A stretch of 38,300 nucleotides of DNA from Marine Group II euryarchaeote MED-G33 (lineage in GTDB: Archaea > Thermoplasmatota > Poseidoniia > Poseidoniales > Thalassarchaeaceae): the NCBI GenBank assembly GCA_002457195.1, contig NTJU01000003.1, positions 1-38,300 of the forward strand, read 5' to 3'. Shown here in pieces: positions 28,859-37,755 of the stretch (position 1 is the stretch's first letter; the number at the start of each line of letters is the position of its first letter). Made by a program: the position numbers and the translations under genes. Under the pieces are notes generated by a model. It ran no database searches and was not told where the DNA came from. It was given only the letters and a program-made list of their open reading frames with translations.

Positions 28859-31800
28859 ATGTTTCTGAAGGCTATCGAATTAGAGAATTTCAAGTCGTTC
28901 AAAGGGGAGGTGGTGATTCCGTACGAATTGGGTTTCACTGCGATTACTGGACCCAATGGTAGCGGAAAAAGCAACTGTGGGGATGCGATTCAATTCGTTC
29001 TTGGTCCCCGTAGCGCCAAGAGTCTACGAGCCCAGAATGTCAAGGATCTGATATTCAATGGTGGGAAGAAGGACAAGCCAGCCCGTTCTTGTACTGCAAC
29101 TTTGGTGTTTGACAACACCGCAGACGACTCGGGACAACGCCGTTTGCGTGTCGATGCAGACGAAGTACGCTTCACACGCACAGTCAAATTGAATCGTAAG
29201 AATGATTCAGTCACTGCTTACTATCTGAATGAACGAAGTTCAACCAGTACCGAATTCCGAAGAATACTCACTGAGGCCGGAGCCCGGGGGGATGGTTACA
29301 ACATCGTTCTCCAGGGTGACGTCACCCATTTGGCCACCATGACAACTCGGGATCGAAGAAAGGTCCTCGACGATGTCGCCGGTGTCACGGCCTATGATGA
29401 TGAAATTAAGCGCGCAGATCGGCAACGCAAGAAGGCCGAAGAATACCTTGAGCGCATATCCCTTCTTGAAGAGGAACTCAAGGATCGTCTCAAAACACTC
29501 AGCAAGGAACGCGAACAGGCGATGAAATATCGTAACTTAGCCGAAGCCCTAGACAATGCGCGTGTTACAGCCATCCACGCTCGCCACCGTTCGCGATTAA
29601 ATGAAATACAAATGATTGCAGATGAGCGGACAGGCTACATTACACGCATTGAAAATCTTACCAAATCAATCCAGGAAACTGGTTCTGAACTTCTCGATTT
29701 AGACGGTGAAATTGCCGATATTGAACGCCAACTCGATTCAGTTCTTGGTGATGATGGGAAGGCACTCGGCGAACGTCTGCGCAAACTGCAAGTCGATGTC
29801 GAAACCCGCAAAGACCGAATTTCAGACTCAGAAACTGCAATCGAGGATGCTGAAGATGAGAGCCAAGTACTTTCCAAGGAACAATCCAATGCTCAACAAG
29901 CCCTTGAGAACCACCAAGTCAGCCTCTCTGAGGCACAAGAGGCATTGGTCAAGGCCGATGCAGACATGGAATCAGCAGCCGAAGAAGAGAAAGCAGCGCG
30001 CGAAGCCATTTCAGGCGGGGATCGCGCAAACCATGACCTCAATCGTGCCTTCGGCAAAGCAACAGAAGCTGTGACCAAAGCTGACGAGTTACGTGTTACA
30101 GCATCCCTAGAGGCTGACCGATCACAAAATCAAGTGACAATGGCCGAAGAACGCCTCGCAGAATTGGAAGAGTCGCTCGCCGATGCTCGCCTTACTCGTG
30201 ATGACTTACAATTGGTTGGAGAGGATCTTCAAGGTGATAGTGGTGAAAATGATCGAAGCCAAATGGCTGAGGAATTGACTCGCCTACAACGTCAAGAACG
30301 AACACTCATGGAGCAAACCGAGGAAGTTGAGCGGAAAGTTCGCGAAGCAGAACGTTCCCTTGCCCGGGCTCAGGGTGAAATGGAAAATAAGTCAGGTTCC
30401 AAGGCTGGATTGGCCCAAGCAGTTTCCGCAGTCATGTCACTCAAAGATTCAGGACAGGTTCAGGGGATTCTGGGACCGCTTGGACAATTGTGTGAGCCCA
30501 AGGATACTGAGCACGAAGAGGCTCTTGCGTTCGCCCTGGGTGGCGGAATGAACAGTATCATTGTTCGTGACGATGAAACCGCAGCGACCTGTATCAAGTG
30601 GTTGCGAGACAACCGTGCCGGCCGGGCCACATTCCTACCACTGAACAAACTCACCGTTCGTCGACCAGGTGGGAAAGCAGTCATGACCGCTCGTCAGGAC
30701 GGTGTTGTAGGCTTTGCATTCAATCTACTAGAGTTTGATGAAACGATTGAATCAGCAGTCAAGCACGCTGTTCGAGACACACTCATTGTCCGAGACATGG
30801 GTACTGCAAGACGTCACATGGGTGGCGTACGAATGGTGACTCTGGATGGTAGTATTACAGAGGCAAGTGGGGCCATGGTCGGTGGTGCTGTACGAGGCCG
30901 CCGCCCCCAATTCGGTGGCAATATTGCTGGCATGAATGCAGTTCAGCAGGCTGAAACCGAAATCAGCCGATTGGAATTGCTTTCCGATACGGTCAACGCT
31001 GCTCTGGCTGAAGCACGTCAAAATCAACATCGTCTACGGGAGAAAATCAACAATCTTGGTGGTGACGATACAAGTCTCAAACTACGTGCGTGGCAAGAAG
31101 ATATGAAGCGAGCAAACACTGCCTTTGAATCGGCACAAGACAAGCTCAAGGTTTGCAACGCCCAACTTGTTGAAGCCAAGAATGTCTATCAGAAGTTACA
31201 GGATCGTGCTGATGCTGCAACAGAGGCTTACGACAATGCTGTCAATGAACGTCAGATTGCTTCCGACAGTTTACTTTCATCATCACCTGAACATCTTTCA
31301 GAACGCCTAAGGGCGAGCGATGAACTCCGTGTTGCTGCAATGCAAGCGAAGATTGACGCAGAATCTAAACTGGCAACAGGGAATGCGAATACGGAACTAT
31401 TGCAGCACAATGTCAATGAAATCGAGAGGCGTATTGCCGAGCAATCTTCAATCATCGAGAAGTCACAAGCACGTATCAGCGAACTCAATGCAGAAATTGA
31501 GACCTTGAATTCAGAACTCGAAACTGTTTCGGAGGCCCACGAACAAGTTGCTGAAGAACACCGGGAACTCAACGAGCGTTCCAAGTCACTACGTGAAGAT
31601 CGTGCTGGCATCAAAGCAACTCTTGAGCAAAATAGCAACACTCGTGAATCTCTCCGAACTCGTTGTGATGAACTATCTCAAGAAATTGAGAACAAACGCA
31701 GGCTACTTGAGGAGTTGACGCAGGAAATGTCAGCCCAGAATGTCGAACCACTGACTGAAGATATTGACTTGCCCAGCGTAGGGGATGCAGAGTCTAGTGT

Positions 31801-32830
31801 TCGAAATATCGAGCGTCGGATTTCAAATCTAGGCGATGTCAACATGATGGCGATCGAACAATATGATGAGGCTGAAGAACGTCTTGTCCGCATCACTGAT
31901 GATTCTAGCGTCCTAAGAAAGCGTCGTACAGACCTCATCCAACTCACTGAAAAGTTGGAGGGCGAACGCAAGTCCAGGTTGACCACTGTATTGGAAATAG
32001 TCTCTGAGAATTTCAAGCGAGTTTACAGTAGATTATCTGATGGTGGTAACGCTGAGTTGCGCCTTGAGAATCCAAAAGATCCCTTTACAGGTGGCCTTGA
32101 GATGTGGTGCCAACCGCGAGGCAAATCTAGCAAGAGCAAACTCAGTCTTCTCTCTGGTGGTGAGAAATCAATGGCGGCATTGGCTCTCATTTTCGCAATC
32201 CAAGATTACGACCCAAGTCCTTTCTATTACTTCGATGAAGTTGACCAGAACCTCGATGCATACAACGCAGAACATATCGCACGCCTTTGTCGTCTACGTA
32301 GCCAACGAGCTCAGTTCATCATGGTCACATTGCGCAAAGTCAGCCTACAACTTGCAGACCACCACATCGGAATCACTCATGCTGGCGATGGTTGCAGTCG
32401 TCGTATCACTGACTTTGACCGTGAACAGGCCATCGAACTCGGCGAGGCAGCTGAGGCAGAACTTGAAGCGGCCACAGCCACCCTGGAGAAGAAGGCGAAA
32501 CTGACCAAAGATCTCCCTGATCCTTCCAAGATGGAATCTGCACCCGAAGAATTGCCGACTCCAGCTAGTCTGGGTGGCTCATTATTGGATGCCGAAGACA
32601 GTGCAAGTGAAACTCCAGTCTCAGCCGAAGTGGGCCCTGAAATCGTTGAAAACGATGGGCCGGATATCACAATTTCTTCACTCGCTGATCGAGCCTCGGA
32701 TGAAAAAGAGGACATGGATGAACGCCTCGAATGGGAGCAAGCAGTGGATGCGAAAAAGGCTGAAGAAGAGGCAGGTTCCGAGCCAGTTGAGCAAATTACT
32801 GAAGTCCCTGAAGTAGAGGAACAGGAGTGA
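28859..32830 (+). CDS. smc: Chromosome segregation protein SMC
   Basis: 1323 aa; Walker A 'ITGPNGSGKSNCGDAIQFVLG', coiled coils, hinge 'VQGILGPLGQLCEPKDTEHEEALAFALGGGMNSIIVRD', signature 'KLSLLSGGEKSMAALALIFAI', Walker B 'PFYYFDEVDQNLDAYNA'. Confidence 0.97.
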   Translation: MFLKAIELENFKSFKGEVVIPYELGFTAITGPNGSGKSNCGDAIQFVLGPRSAKSLRAQNVKDLIFNGGKKDKPARSCTATLVFDNTADDSGQRRLRVDADEVRFTRTVKLNRKNDSVTAYYLNERSSTSTEFRRILTEAGARGDGYNIVLQGDVTHLATMTTRDRRKVLDDVAGVTAYDDEIKRADRQRKKAEEYLERISLLEEELKDRLKTLSKEREQAMKYRNLAEALDNARVTAIHARHRSRLNEIQMIADERTGYITRIENLTKSIQETGSELLDLDGEIADIERQLDSVLGDDGKALGERLRKLQVDVETRKDRISDSETAIEDAEDESQVLSKEQSNAQQALENHQVSLSEAQEALVKADADMESAAEEEKAAREAISGGDRANHDLNRAFGKATEAVTKADELRVTASLEADRSQNQVTMAEERLAELEESLADARLTRDDLQLVGEDLQGDSGENDRSQMAEELTRLQRQERTLMEQTEEVERKVREAERSLARAQGEMENKSGSKAGLAQAVSAVMSLKDSGQVQGILGPLGQLCEPKDTEHEEALAFALGGGMNSIIVRDDETAATCIKWLRDNRAGRATFLPLNKLTVRRPGGKAVMTARQDGVVGFAFNLLEFDETIESAVKHAVRDTLIVRDMGTARRHMGGVRMVTLDGSITEASGAMVGGAVRGRRPQFGGNIAGMNAVQQAETEISRLELLSDTVNAALAEARQNQHRLREKINNLGGDDTSLKLRAWQEDMKRANTAFESAQDKLKVCNAQLVEAKNVYQKLQDRADAATEAYDNAVNERQIASDSLLSSSPEHLSERLRASDELRVAAMQAKIDAESKLATGNANTELLQHNVNEIERRIAEQSSIIEKSQARISELNAEIETLNSELETVSEAHEQVAEEHRELNERSKSLREDRAGIKATLEQNSNTRESLRTRCDELSQEIENKRRLLEELTQEMSAQNVEPLTEDIDLPSVGDAESSVRNIERRISNLGDVNMMAIEQYDEAEERLVRITDDSSVLRKRRTDLIQLTEKLEGERKSRLTTVLEIVSENFKRVYSRLSDGGNAELRLENPKDPFTGGLEMWCQPRGKSSKSKLSLLSGGEKSMAALALIFAIQDYDPSPFYYFDEVDQNLDAYNAEHIARLCRLRSQRAQFIMVTLRKVSLQLADHHIGITHAGDGCSRRITDFDREQAIELGEAAEAELEAATATLEKKAKLTKDLPDPSKMESAPEELPTPASLGGSLLDAEDSASETPVSAEVGPEIVENDGPDITISSLADRASDEKEDMDERLEWEQAVDAKKAEEEAGSEPVEQITEVPEVEEQE

Positions 32831-32835
32831 TTTCG

Positions 32836-33846
32836 ATGTCTCTACTTGAGACCCGTGACATGCAAGCGACGATTGTCAAACAGTTGCTTGGTGAACAAGA
32901 TGATGCAAATCTCGACAAGCATCGATATATCGATCGTTTGATTGAAATTGCGGATTTAGAAAGCGCAGAACATCAGAGCCTAGCCGACCCATTTGATCGA
33001 TCTGTCGCACTCGTTTTCCAGATGTTTAACGATGCAAGTTTGGATCCGTGGGATGTTGATTTGAGTGTTTTCATCGAACAGTTCAATCTCCGTACAAAGG
33101 ATACAGAAAATATCGACCTCCCAACCTGTGGGCGCCTAATACGAATGGCTTGGAAAGTATTGCATGGTCAAGCATCTACACTACTCGATCGCGCAGAGCG
33201 TGCTGAAGAAGAATGGGAGGATGACCCTTGGGCCCTGGAAGGTTGGCAAACCGAATTTGAGGATGAAGAATACAATTTCAGTGTAGGGATTATTACTGGA
33301 CAAACCACTGATGTGTTGCCCAATCTTCTCGATGGACGGGTAAAACGTGAGGAAGGTCGCCCCGTTACCCTTACTGAATTGTTGATGTCTCTACAGGGAG
33401 CACATCAAGAGGTTGAAGAACGCCGGATTCGCGAAGAGAGCCGGATTAAACATGCAGCCGAAGTCAGTGATTGGATGTCAAATGTGACGACTCGGATGCA
33501 CAAGGAAGACCTTGAGGATGATATTCGGCGATGCTGGGAGGCGATTCGGGCTGCCAGTCCAGATGGTGCCCCCGTCACTCTGGAACAAGTCGCAGAAAAA
33601 CTAGCTGAGCATTCTGCTGCAGAAGGATGGACTTTGAAGGAGGCCGAGGAAGAAGGCCAGGTAACGGGTTTTGTTTCTGCATTATTCCTCACGCACCGGG
33701 GTTACACTGATTTGTGGCAAATGGAATACCCTAGTGGAGATATTTTCTTACAGGACAAATGGCCGAAATACGATGATTTTTCAGCCATATCTACAGAGAT
33801 CGGTATCGGGCCACGCCAAGCAGATAGAGGTGATGATTCTGAGTGA
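32836..33846 (+). CDS. scpA: Segregation and condensation protein A (kleisin)
   Basis: ORF track 32827..33846; start at ATG 32836 is more likely (MSLLETRDMQ). 'DPFDRSVALVFQMFNDASLDPWDVDLSVFIEQF' is ScpA-like. Between smc and scpB. Confidence 0.88.
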   Translation: MSLLETRDMQATIVKQLLGEQDDANLDKHRYIDRLIEIADLESAEHQSLADPFDRSVALVFQMFNDASLDPWDVDLSVFIEQFNLRTKDTENIDLPTCGRLIRMAWKVLHGQASTLLDRAERAEEEWEDDPWALEGWQTEFEDEEYNFSVGIITGQTTDVLPNLLDGRVKREEGRPVTLTELLMSLQGAHQEVEERRIREESRIKHAAEVSDWMSNVTTRMHKEDLEDDIRRCWEAIRAASPDGAPVTLEQVAEKLAEHSAAEGWTLKEAEEEGQVTGFVSALFLTHRGYTDLWQMEYPSGDIFLQDKWPKYDDFSAISTEIGIGPRQADRGDDSE

Positions 33847-34480
33847 CGTAGATCTACGCACCTTGCTAGAAGCAACCTTGTTCGGGGCCGGCCGTTCTCT
33901 TTCTGTTGAAGAGCTTGCAGAATCACTACAGCAAACTCCGGGTGAGATTGTTGCACATCTCGAGTCGTTACAGCACACAATGAAACGTCGACCAGGGGGG
34001 GCTCTCCAACTGACCAGCGTCAGTGGAAGATGGGTTATGGAAGTGAAACCAAAATTGGCCAACCACATTCCATCGTCATTCAGAACTGAGATTCCTCAGC
34101 GCTTGTTAGCTGCTGCAGCGCTGATTGCATATCATCAACCAATGGCACAGAGCCAACTGGTCGAAATGATTGGACAACGCGCCTATGATCATGTTCGTGA
34201 CCTCGCTCATCTTGGTTTGATTGATCGTCGGCGTGATGGACTCTCAAGGCGCTTGACAACAACTCGCCGTTTCGCGGAGATGTTCGGTTGCCCATTTGCT
34301 GAATCGAAAAAAGTGCGTAAGTGGTTCAGGGAACATGCTGCCAAAATGGGCATGGATGGTGCTGAACTGGCCGCGAGTCTAGGGGACGGAGATGGTGAGA
34401 TTCAAGATGCACCTGAAGTCCCTGTCGGTGAAGACTGGGATGAGTCCAGCGCTGAAGTCATAGGTGACGAGGAAGAGTGA
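33833..34480 (+). CDS. scpB: Segregation and condensation protein B
   Basis: Frame of ORF 33671..34480 trimmed to ATG 33833 (MILSDVDLRTLLEATLFGAGRSLSVEELAESLQ...). 'RLLAAAALIAYHQPMAQSQLVEMIGQRAYDHVRDLAHLGLIDRRRDG' is ScpB-like. Overlaps the end of scpA. Confidence 0.88.
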   Translation: MILSDVDLRTLLEATLFGAGRSLSVEELAESLQQTPGEIVAHLESLQHTMKRRPGGALQLTSVSGRWVMEVKPKLANHIPSSFRTEIPQRLLAAAALIAYHQPMAQSQLVEMIGQRAYDHVRDLAHLGLIDRRRDGLSRRLTTTRRFAEMFGCPFAESKKVRKWFREHAAKMGMDGAELAASLGDGDGEIQDAPEVPVGEDWDESSAEVIGDEEE

Positions 34481-35773
34481 TCATCCTCGAAGCTCATTCA
34501 GTGCGTTTTCAATCGCTGCTGCTGTGATTCTTTCGCCACTTGCCCGAATCATATCGACTACAACATCGACTTCATGATCCTCTGCACCTGCTGTAACGGC
34601 CATATTCCTCGCATGTAATTTCATGTGACCTGCTTGGATTCCAACGGTGGCGAGGGCGCGTAGAGCACCCAGATTCTGGGCCAGCCCTGCTGCTGCCATC
34701 ACCTTGGATAGGTCATCGGCAGTCCTGGCACCCATGATGGCGACATTTGCCTTGGCGACAGGATGTACGCGCACAGCGCCGCCAACGAGACCAACGGGCA
34801 TTGGTAATTCAATCGAACCAACCAAGTTTCCATCCGCATCCTTTTCCCAATGTGTCAGGGAACCGTATGTTCGTCCATATGATGCATAGGAATGCGCTCC
34901 AGATTCGATAGCACGCCAATCTTGTCCACAGGCGACTCCAATCGGTGAAATCGCATTCATGATGCCCTTGTTGTGGGTTGTAGCTCTAAATGGGTCTGCT
35001 GCGGCAAAGTGGTATGCTTGTAGAATCCCTTCGATGACTTCTGCGCCTTGGGCAGCATCACCTGCATTTGACATTTCTACAGGGGTGAAAGTAGCACTAA
35101 CGCGGGCCAAACGGTGTATGGCCAAATTACTGATGATACGGAGAATGACAGTACCTCCGGAAATCGCTTCGACACGCGGTGCAATCGTTTCTGCCATCGT
35201 ATTGACTGCATTGGCACCCATGGCATCCTGACAATCGACCAGAATATGGACGATCACCATTGGGCCGGATTCTGTATCGATTACTCTTGCCTCAAGATCT
35301 CGACACCCGCCTCCAAATTTGACGAGAATTGGGTCAACCTCATTACAGGCCTCAATCAAACCGTCTTTTGCTTCAAGGATGGCTGATTTGGCTGCAAAAA
35401 CATCTTCACACCCTACGACTTGAATCTGACCAATCATGATTGGGTCTGTATTGTTGGACACAAAGCCCCCTTTTGCATGACATCGCTTGGCCATATTACT
35501 GGCTGCAGCAACCACTGATGGTTCTTCAAGGGCGAAGGGTACGATATAGTGCTCATCATCGATAATGAAATTCGTTGCAACGCCTACAGGGAGTGCCAAT
35601 GTACCGATGACATTCTCAATGATCCGATCTGCAGCAGATTCTGACAATTCTCCTGTTGCGGCAAGCGCATCGATAGCCTCTTGATCCAATCCGGCCAATT
35701 CTGCAACCTTCTCTCTTCGCTCTTTGACACTTAATTTGAAAAATCCCTTCAGACGGCTGTTCTCAACAGGCAT
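34481..35773 (-). CDS. Hydroxymethylglutaryl-CoA reductase, class II (bacterial/degradative type)
   Basis: 430 aa; 'SRLKGFFKLSVKERREKVAELAGL', 'ALPVGVATNFIIDDEHYIVPFALEEPSVVAAASNMAKR', 'DAMGANAVNTMAE', 'HNKGIMNAISPIGVACGQDWRAIE' as in class II HMGR. Confidence 0.93.
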   Translation of the reverse strand: MPVENSRLKGFFKLSVKERREKVAELAGLDQEAIDALAATGELSESAADRIIENVIGTLALPVGVATNFIIDDEHYIVPFALEEPSVVAAASNMAKRCHAKGGFVSNNTDPIMIGQIQVVGCEDVFAAKSAILEAKDGLIEACNEVDPILVKFGGGCRDLEARVIDTESGPMVIVHILVDCQDAMGANAVNTMAETIAPRVEAISGGTVILRIISNLAIHRLARVSATFTPVEMSNAGDAAQGAEVIEGILQAYHFAAADPFRATTHNKGIMNAISPIGVACGQDWRAIESGAHSYASYGRTYGSLTHWEKDADGNLVGSIELPMPVGLVGGAVRVHPVAKANVAIMGARTADDLSKVMAAAGLAQNLGALRALATVGIQAGHMKLHARNMAVTAGAEDHEVDVVVDMIRASGERITAAAIENALNELRG

Positions 35774-35879
35774 GGCTAATCCTCGTTCTGTTCCTTGAGT
35801 TCGATGTCCTAAAGGGTTGCGAATAGGTTTGTTCCAACCGCTTGATTTGGGGCAATATGGCGAACGCCATCAGATACGT

Positions 35880-35941
35880 ATGCGTTAACAAAGCGTTACT
35901 AACGCTTTACATGCGTTAACAAAGCGTTAATAATGCGTTAA
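35880..35941. repeat. Iteron-like cluster: two 19-bp direct repeats ATGCGTTAACAAAGCGTTA plus partial and inverted copies
   Basis: Copy 1 at 35880..35898, copy 2 at 35911..35929, partial ATGCGTTAA at 35933..35941. Inverted repeat AAGCGTTA-C-TAACGCTT at 35891..35907. GCGTTA cores at 35882, 35893, 35913, 35924, 35935. A further GCGTTAAC is at 36042. Confidence 0.9.
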
Positions 35942-36081
35942 TTGGAAATATTTAACCCAATAAAAAGAACATAAATACGCTATGATGGCATTCGGTTCAC
36001 TCTTCAACGCTTTGAAACAGGATTCTCCATGTGTTAGATTCGCGTTAACTTGTTAAACCCAACCGAAGTTCGCGGCCATAG

Positions 36082-37755
36082 ATGTCGAATAGTGTGACGA
36101 ATGCTTTGCACCTACCTCATATGCGTGCAAACCCCTTCTCGCCAAAGCCGATTGAGGCCAACGACTACGCATTGTTGGTCGGACGAAGTGAGTTAATGTC
36201 TGATTTGAGACAGCACCTGCGCTTTGGCAGCCCTCGCCTGATGGTATTGCTTGGAGATCGCGGCTCGGGACGAACCTCTATTTTGCAGTCATTAAGCAAC
36301 CTTTCACCGAATCCGTATCGATTCTCCTACTATCCAGGGGAGAATCCCAGCAAAAGCCTCCTGCATGAGATGTTTTGCCTTATCGTGGGGCATGATGTCC
36401 CTCCTTCGACAAATACATTGGTTGAGGAAATGGTCGCAACGTTAGAGGGGAAAAGTGGGGATTTACCGTTGATCACCTTCGATTTCCCAGGGGTTGCAGG
36501 GGCTGATTTAGCCCAAGTTTTTGAAAGATTAACTCCTGTTTTGAATCGTTTGAGGGCGTTGGTCATCGTGGCCCTTACGCCAGCACAATTGGGCACATGG
36601 CCTGATGATTTACAATATGAGTATGATATCACTGAACCATTGGCAGATTTCGACTCTTCAACCATACGTTCTCTAATCGACAAGCGAATCAGCCAAGTCA
36701 GTAACGAGGGGTGGATTGCACCCCAGTCTCTGATTGAAGACGCAATCGCGCATACAGGAGGGCGCGCAACCCCAATCATCCGCCACCTCAGGGATCTAAT
36801 CGATTCACAACGAGGTGCATCTACAACATTCTCTCGTAAACAGCAAATGATTGAATCCATGGAATTAGAGCCAAATGACGCTAAGAAACGAATGGCTCCT
36901 CAAGTAGAGCCTCTGGAACCCTTGGATGACGCTAAAGAAGATTTGACAGATGAATCTGCACCCGAATCTGAATCACAACCAGATGTGGAGACCGATTTCA
37001 ATTGGGATTTGCCTGAACCGAAACTTGAGGTCGAGGAAGAATTCCCTGAGGAACCAATGGATCCATCATTTGAACCGGTGGAAGACACCCCCTCAGAATT
37101 TGAATTTCCATCCATGGAGATCGACGAAACAGATGAACCAGACATGTCCCAGGCACTGGGTGGCGCGATTCTTGAGATGGAACCAGGGACTGAACCACCC
37201 CCTCCAATGCATGCGTTTGGAGGTCTCGCTACTCGTCAACGTACGGCCAAGGTGGAAATTGGCTTGGACAATGCTCTCGCACCAAAGGCCAGTGGGCCAT
37301 TGACGGCAAAACCAGATAAAAGCATGAATTTCGCTCCCGAAGAGCCTCAAATCGAATCTGACGAAACCACTTACTGGGTCGCTGAAACTCTCCCTGAACC
37401 CGCCCCTCAAGCTCCCCCTGTTATGGACCCCATGGCTGCCAAATCGATTGGGGACAATCTTCGCAAGTCACAGCCCAAACCAACTGGCTCCACTTTGCCG
37501 TTAGACTTCGAGAAGGTATCGTCTCTCAATGATTCTGAAATCATCATTGTCGAGGCATCGATTGCACGAGAGGTCTCACCTTCAGATTCTGCCTTACAAG
37601 CCCACCTTGCAGTGGGTCGGCCACGATTATCACAAATATTCAATGGATTGCATAAATCTGGAATACTGTCTGTCCGGAAAAAGGGTAGGACCCGCTTATT
37701 CCGAATATCCGATCAAGCAAAAGCCCATCTTGCAGATGGCCACATGGAGGCGTAA
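36082..37755 (+). CDS. AAA-like ATPase-fold protein with degenerate Walker motifs, acidic/proline-rich linker and C-terminal winged-helix domain
   Basis: 557 aa; N-terminal 'RANPFSPKPIEANDYALLVGRSELMSDLRQHLRFGSPRLMVLLGDRGSGRTSILQSL' (AAA-like with K-to-R in Walker A), 'LPLITFDFPGVAGADLAQVFERL', E/P-rich middle, and C-terminal 'DSALQAHLAVGRPRLSQIFNGLHKSGILSVRKKGRTRLFRISDQAKAHL' (wHTH). Confidence 0.7.
   Translation: MSNSVTNALHLPHMRANPFSPKPIEANDYALLVGRSELMSDLRQHLRFGSPRLMVLLGDRGSGRTSILQSLSNLSPNPYRFSYYPGENPSKSLLHEMFCLIVGHDVPPSTNTLVEEMVATLEGKSGDLPLITFDFPGVAGADLAQVFERLTPVLNRLRALVIVALTPAQLGTWPDDLQYEYDITEPLADFDSSTIRSLIDKRISQVSNEGWIAPQSLIEDAIAHTGGRATPIIRHLRDLIDSQRGASTTFSRKQQMIESMELEPNDAKKRMAPQVEPLEPLDDAKEDLTDESAPESESQPDVETDFNWDLPEPKLEVEEEFPEEPMDPSFEPVEDTPSEFEFPSMEIDETDEPDMSQALGGAILEMEPGTEPPPPMHAFGGLATRQRTAKVEIGLDNALAPKASGPLTAKPDKSMNFAPEEPQIESDETTYWVAETLPEPAPQAPPVMDPMAAKSIGDNLRKSQPKPTGSTLPLDFEKVSSLNDSEIIIVEASIAREVSPSDSALQAHLAVGRPRLSQIFNGLHKSGILSVRKKGRTRLFRISDQAKAHLADGHMEA

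Follow-up and report, generated by a model that had tools for sequence, protein, structure and literature searches.

The intergenic region that separates the divergently oriented genes for HMG-CoA reductase (HMGR) and an AAA+/winged-helix protein in a Poseidoniales (Marine Group II) archaeon harbors an array of CGTTA sites that is unique in the genome, conserved, and helically phased. Judged by its sequence, this array is best read as a single-copy replicator-like element, and we estimate a probability of roughly one half that it constitutes the chromosomal replication origin. A literature search found no treatment of a Marine Group II replication origin. In the following, the window denotes the entire analyzed stretch of 38,300 nucleotides; relatives in named records are assigned to Marine Group II, Candidatus Thalassarchaeaceae, or Poseidoniales.

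Sequence organization of the array

The intergenic region is bordered by HMGR (34481–35773, minus strand; PF00368, E 1.5e-103), a divergent neighbor whose adjacency is conserved, and by the AAA gene (36082–37755, plus strand). Further upstream, domain matches place a bacterial-type set of SMC, ScpA-like, and ScpB condensin genes at 28859–34480 (plus strand). The core array (35880–35941) consists of GCGTTA iterons starting at 35882, 35893, 35913, 35924, and 35935 on the plus strand, exactly where the original prediction had put them, and of one on the minus strand at 35900, with the outer iteron starts 53 bp, that is, five helical turns, apart. The two exact 19-bp copies of ATGCGTTAACAAAGCGTTA that had been reported with an offset of 31 bp are indeed found at 35880–35898 and 35911–35929, as is the perfect inverted repeat AAGCGTTA-C-TAACGCTT at 35891–35907. 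Elsewhere in the 1.27 Mb assembly, the ATGCGTTAACAAAGCGTTA 19-mer has no exact copy, and allowing up to three mismatches adds one match, an overlapping one at 35922. The shorter motif GCGTTAAC occurs nine times genome-wide, three of these in the HMGR–AAA intergenic region of the window, and all three matches of the 11-bp pair RCGTTAN5RCGTTA in this genome fall into the array.

Two sites lie beyond those listed in the original prediction, both within conserved sequence: a genus-conserved variant iteron, CAACGCTT (36005–36012; the minus strand, on which it is annotated, reads AAGCGTTG), and an isolated iteron, GCGTTAAC (36042–36049, plus strand). In the genus alignment, the core array has a mean identity of 0.90 as compared to 0.54 and 0.62 in the flanking spacers, and the blocks holding the two additional sites are as conserved as the array itself (0.87 for the block at 35991–36020 that includes CAACGCTT). 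The isolated iteron lies immediately upstream of a TATA-like element, TTGTTAAAC (36050–36058, plus strand), which is conserved in the genus, is positioned about 25–30 bp 5' of the ATG, and is likely the promoter of a near-leaderless AAA-gene transcript. Beside the array, the genus alignment and a stability scan point to an AT-rich, poorly conserved spacer (35943–35990) as a candidate unwinding element; the AT excess in this alignment is modest.

Conservation and geometry across the order

Loss of the iterons in close relatives had been named as an argument against the original prediction. Contrary to this scenario, they are kept order-wide: all 74 loci with both flanking genes carry an array of 3–11 CGTTA sites between HMGR(−) and AAA(+), including loci from the second family of the order, and CGTTA density in these intergenic regions amounts to 22 per kb as compared to 0.59 per kb in the flanks. 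Reduced arrays occur in some genomes, for example, in G032 (L310), which belongs to the same family as the window. Across 59 genomes, 81 of the 89 matches to RCGTTAN5RCGTTA are located at the HMGR–AAA locus. In the scaffolded genome G036 (2.06 Mb, of which 1.84 Mb were examined), the densest CGTTA cluster is likewise the array locus (a 15-N gap of a kind common in this assembly lies within the array, L069:4915-4929; G036:C1:694915). CGTTA arrays were seen neither at the canonical orc1 gene nor, as clusters, at orc2 loci elsewhere in the phylum, and the sister family lacks the strict array pattern; a single exact pair stands alone in G136. The idea that the motif is selectively depleted from the rest of the genome was rejected, as counts match the Markov expectation.

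Related loci display 29 distinct array architectures, the commonest being +0 -15 -26 +42 +53 and +0 +11 -17 +31 +42 +53, and an all-direct version (+++++) with sites at +0 +20 +31 +42 +53 also exists. While the inner sites vary in number and orientation, the outer span comes to exactly 58 bp at 45 loci, and the outer sites are 53 bp (five turns) apart in most lineages. A scan of 225 same-orientation distances from the 29 architectures, which are not independent because the architectures share descent, returned a best site-spacing period of 10.5 bp (R 0.755). The array reads as a rigid unit that presents its sites on a single face of the helix along five turns. The 50-bp stretch of lowest stability falls on the AAA-gene side, at a distance of 0–75 bp from the array, in 49 of 73 loci.

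The AAA+/winged-helix protein

Domain, fold, and alignment evidence describes the product of the gene at 36082 as an AAA+-like protein with a Walker A Lys-to-Arg exchange, an acidic disordered linker, and a C-terminal ArsR-like winged helix, and it is a candidate binder of the array, as is Orc2. Members are 550–670 amino acids long and occur in 63 of 243 phylum genomes, all from this order and including that of the window; within the order, 63 of the 64 sampled genomes encode it, the exception being G022 (90 % complete). No match was obtained in any of five sister-family genomes or in the remaining phylum genomes sampled. The winged helix is the part best conserved between genera.

The AAA+ region of the 36082 protein gives weak matches to AAA_16 and AAA_22, and PDB sequence matches are not outstanding beyond the ArsR-type wHTH and AAA+ stretches. 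The Walker A motif of nearly all members is GxxGSGR[TS], so that the lysine of the Orc1/Cdc6 family (GxxGxGK[TS]) is absent; since Arg64, invariant in 22 proteins, takes its place, ATP hydrolysis is probably impaired. In the AlphaFold model, an AAA+ domain including its lid and a winged helix, both predicted with confidence, are connected by a disordered linker. Among PDB folds, the model is matched best by the Sulfolobus Orc1/Cdc6 heterodimer bound to origin DNA (E 5.7e-7); because MuB, ORC subunits, and RFC come next, the match indicates an AAA+ fold of the initiator/clamp-loader type and does not prove membership in Orc1/Cdc6. With respect to such membership, the protein has no cut-off match to TIGR02928 (Orc1/Cdc6), a profile that weakly recognizes 4 of 22 members (lowest E 7.1e-4), and its C-terminus is ArsR-like instead of the Cdc6_C winged helix. 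A profile comparison with Orc2 covered 212 columns over the AAA+ region (E 1.2e-4, probability 55 %).

Linkage to Orc2

The gene order [SMC–ScpA–ScpB]–HMGR(−)–array–AAA(+)–...–Orc2 is found order-wide. Orc2, a divergent Orc1/Cdc6 paralog, lies 1.5–5.5 kb downstream in all 48 testable loci and usually points toward the AAA gene, which places its promoter on the side away from the array. In the fragmented assembly of the window itself, Orc2 resides on a separate contig (G000:C4); in a relative with an AAA protein of 98 % identity (L193), it is linked to the array locus. Phylogenetically, Orc2 is an old Thermoplasmatota paralog that was lost in the sister family, which has a single canonical orc1/cdc6 and neither Orc2 nor the AAA protein. 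A joint gain of Orc2, AAA protein, and array was accordingly rejected, and the loss of Orc2 in the sister family counts as a single event and hence as weak evidence for linkage. Each of the five genomes of this family (f3; G061, G126, G136, G191, and G197) has one orc1/cdc6, and most other sampled Thermoplasmatota have kept Orc2.

Replication origin or regulatory site?

The original prediction had correctly recognized phased iterons beside an AAA/wHTH gene, a feature conserved throughout the order, and had proposed either an origin-like element or an operator for both divergent genes. The former is now better supported, given the rigid five-turn array, the adjoining unstable DNA, the array's occurrence once per genome, and an Orc1/Cdc6 paralog that is always linked. 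From these features, we infer a mechanism in which the AAA+/winged-helix protein would bind the CGTTA sites on one face of the DNA and would probably act together with, or recruit, the nearby Orc2. This complex would open the adjacent easily melted DNA and load MCM. The AAA protein may additionally regulate its own promoter, toward which the extra sites extend.

The second proposal has become less likely as the whole story. An operator without a role in replication, at which the winged-helix protein would act solely on its own gene and possibly on HMGR, fits the location of the sites between two divergent promoters, one of them (36042) abutting the TATA-like box and another in a conserved block further upstream, as well as the resemblance of the winged helix to ArsR-type repressors. 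There is also a precedent in a haloarchaeal Orc1-2, which is reported to act as a transcription regulator without an initiator role (PMC9738581). Yet the core array, internally rigid as it is, lies 126–201 bp from the AAA start without keeping helical phase and 55–231 bp from HMGR without any fixed distance among related loci, which argues against a simple dual operator. Moreover, the genomes contain practically no similar arrays at other loci and no regulon is therefore evident, a protein of 550–670 amino acids that regulates itself alone would need another job, and the link to Orc2 is left unexplained. We consider a solely regulatory role unlikely.

More improbable still is a centromere-like segregation or condensin-loading site that the AAA/winged-helix protein would bind and that would work with SMC–ScpAB. 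The idea is suggested by the SMC, ScpA-like, and ScpB genes directly upstream in the window and in many relatives and agrees with one array per genome, but ScpB is upstream in just 38 of 60 testable loci as compared to Orc2 downstream in 48 of 48, and domain searches of the AAA protein revealed nothing resembling ParB/SegB. In several genera, SMC–ScpA–ScpB synteny is broken where Orc2 linkage persists. A virus or plasmid origin was rejected as viral contigs contain no relative of the AAA protein (the three-iteron DNA pattern is too loose in such contigs to inform), and an RNA element was likewise dismissed, since there is no Rfam match and all-direct arrays need no hairpins.

Returning to the replicator-like reading, some observations count against it. 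A search that tolerated up to 7 mismatches over 23 positions found canonical ORB repeats (CTTCCAGTGGAAACGAAAGGGGT) in none of the 74 intergenic regions. The usual orientation of Orc2, with its promoter away from the array, also speaks against an origin. In G036, the skew is suggestive, with a valley at about 480–690 kb and the array at 695 kb; the jump at the array, however, ranks between the 54th and 93rd percentile depending on window size and is thus unexceptional, and G046, G058, and G026 exhibit no consistent inflection, with local GC skew not turning positive at the array. GC/keto skew was consequently dropped as proof of an origin. Separately, a second, classical origin may be located near the canonical orc1 of G036. 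As for this gene in general, genomes from both families of the order share a conserved GGACTCGGACT element that precedes canonical orc1/cdc6 by about 75–130 nt (L043, L044, L045, L046, and L051). In the 1.84 Mb of G036, two of five sites with the ORB core TCCANTGGAAA lie about 5–6 kb from canonical orc1 (G036:C1:1823664, 1824165; L101).

Comparison with known origins and implications

At known archaeal origins, AT-rich DNA containing repeats is found next to the gene for an initiator (PMC4010727). Like the Orc1/Cdc6–ORB origins of Pyrococcus, Sulfolobus (oriC1/oriC2), and haloarchaea, the array combines repeats by AT-rich DNA with a close AAA+ initiator-type gene and lies a few kb from an Orc1/Cdc6 paralog. 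Unlike them, it is made up of short, 10.5-bp-phased CGTTA iterons in place of ORBs, and its immediate neighbor is a non-Orc1/Cdc6 protein with an altered Walker A. The lack of ORBs and the adjoining non-Orc1/Cdc6 winged-helix protein are shared with Sulfolobus oriC3/WhiP (PMC4010727). The protein beside the array differs from WhiP in joining an AAA+ domain to an ArsR-like winged helix, and an Orc paralog is linked.

In bacterial Rep/iteron plasmid origins, helically phased iterons border AT-rich DNA, and an initiator-like gene close by carries extra sites in its promoter. The layout of the array and the additional sites at the AAA promoter appear analogous, whereas the array is chromosomal and archaeal, has sites of mixed orientation, and adjoins an unrelated protein. 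By the tests made, the array is not of the ORB class and, by analogy, would function in the manner of oriC3 or of iteron origins. Tentatively, it may even exemplify a new origin type, defined by phased CGTTA iterons, an Orc-like AAA+ protein that is restricted to the order and combines a probably inactive ATPase site with an ArsR-type winged helix, and an Orc1/Cdc6 paralog, a possibility to which we assign less than even odds.

Poseidoniales are among the most abundant archaea of the surface ocean. A single sequence-defined candidate site together with named candidate proteins renders the question of their replication origin testable. If the origin reading is true, the array would serve as a reference point when growth rates are estimated from metagenome coverage and would represent an origin-recognition module outside the Orc1/Cdc6–ORB and WhiP types.
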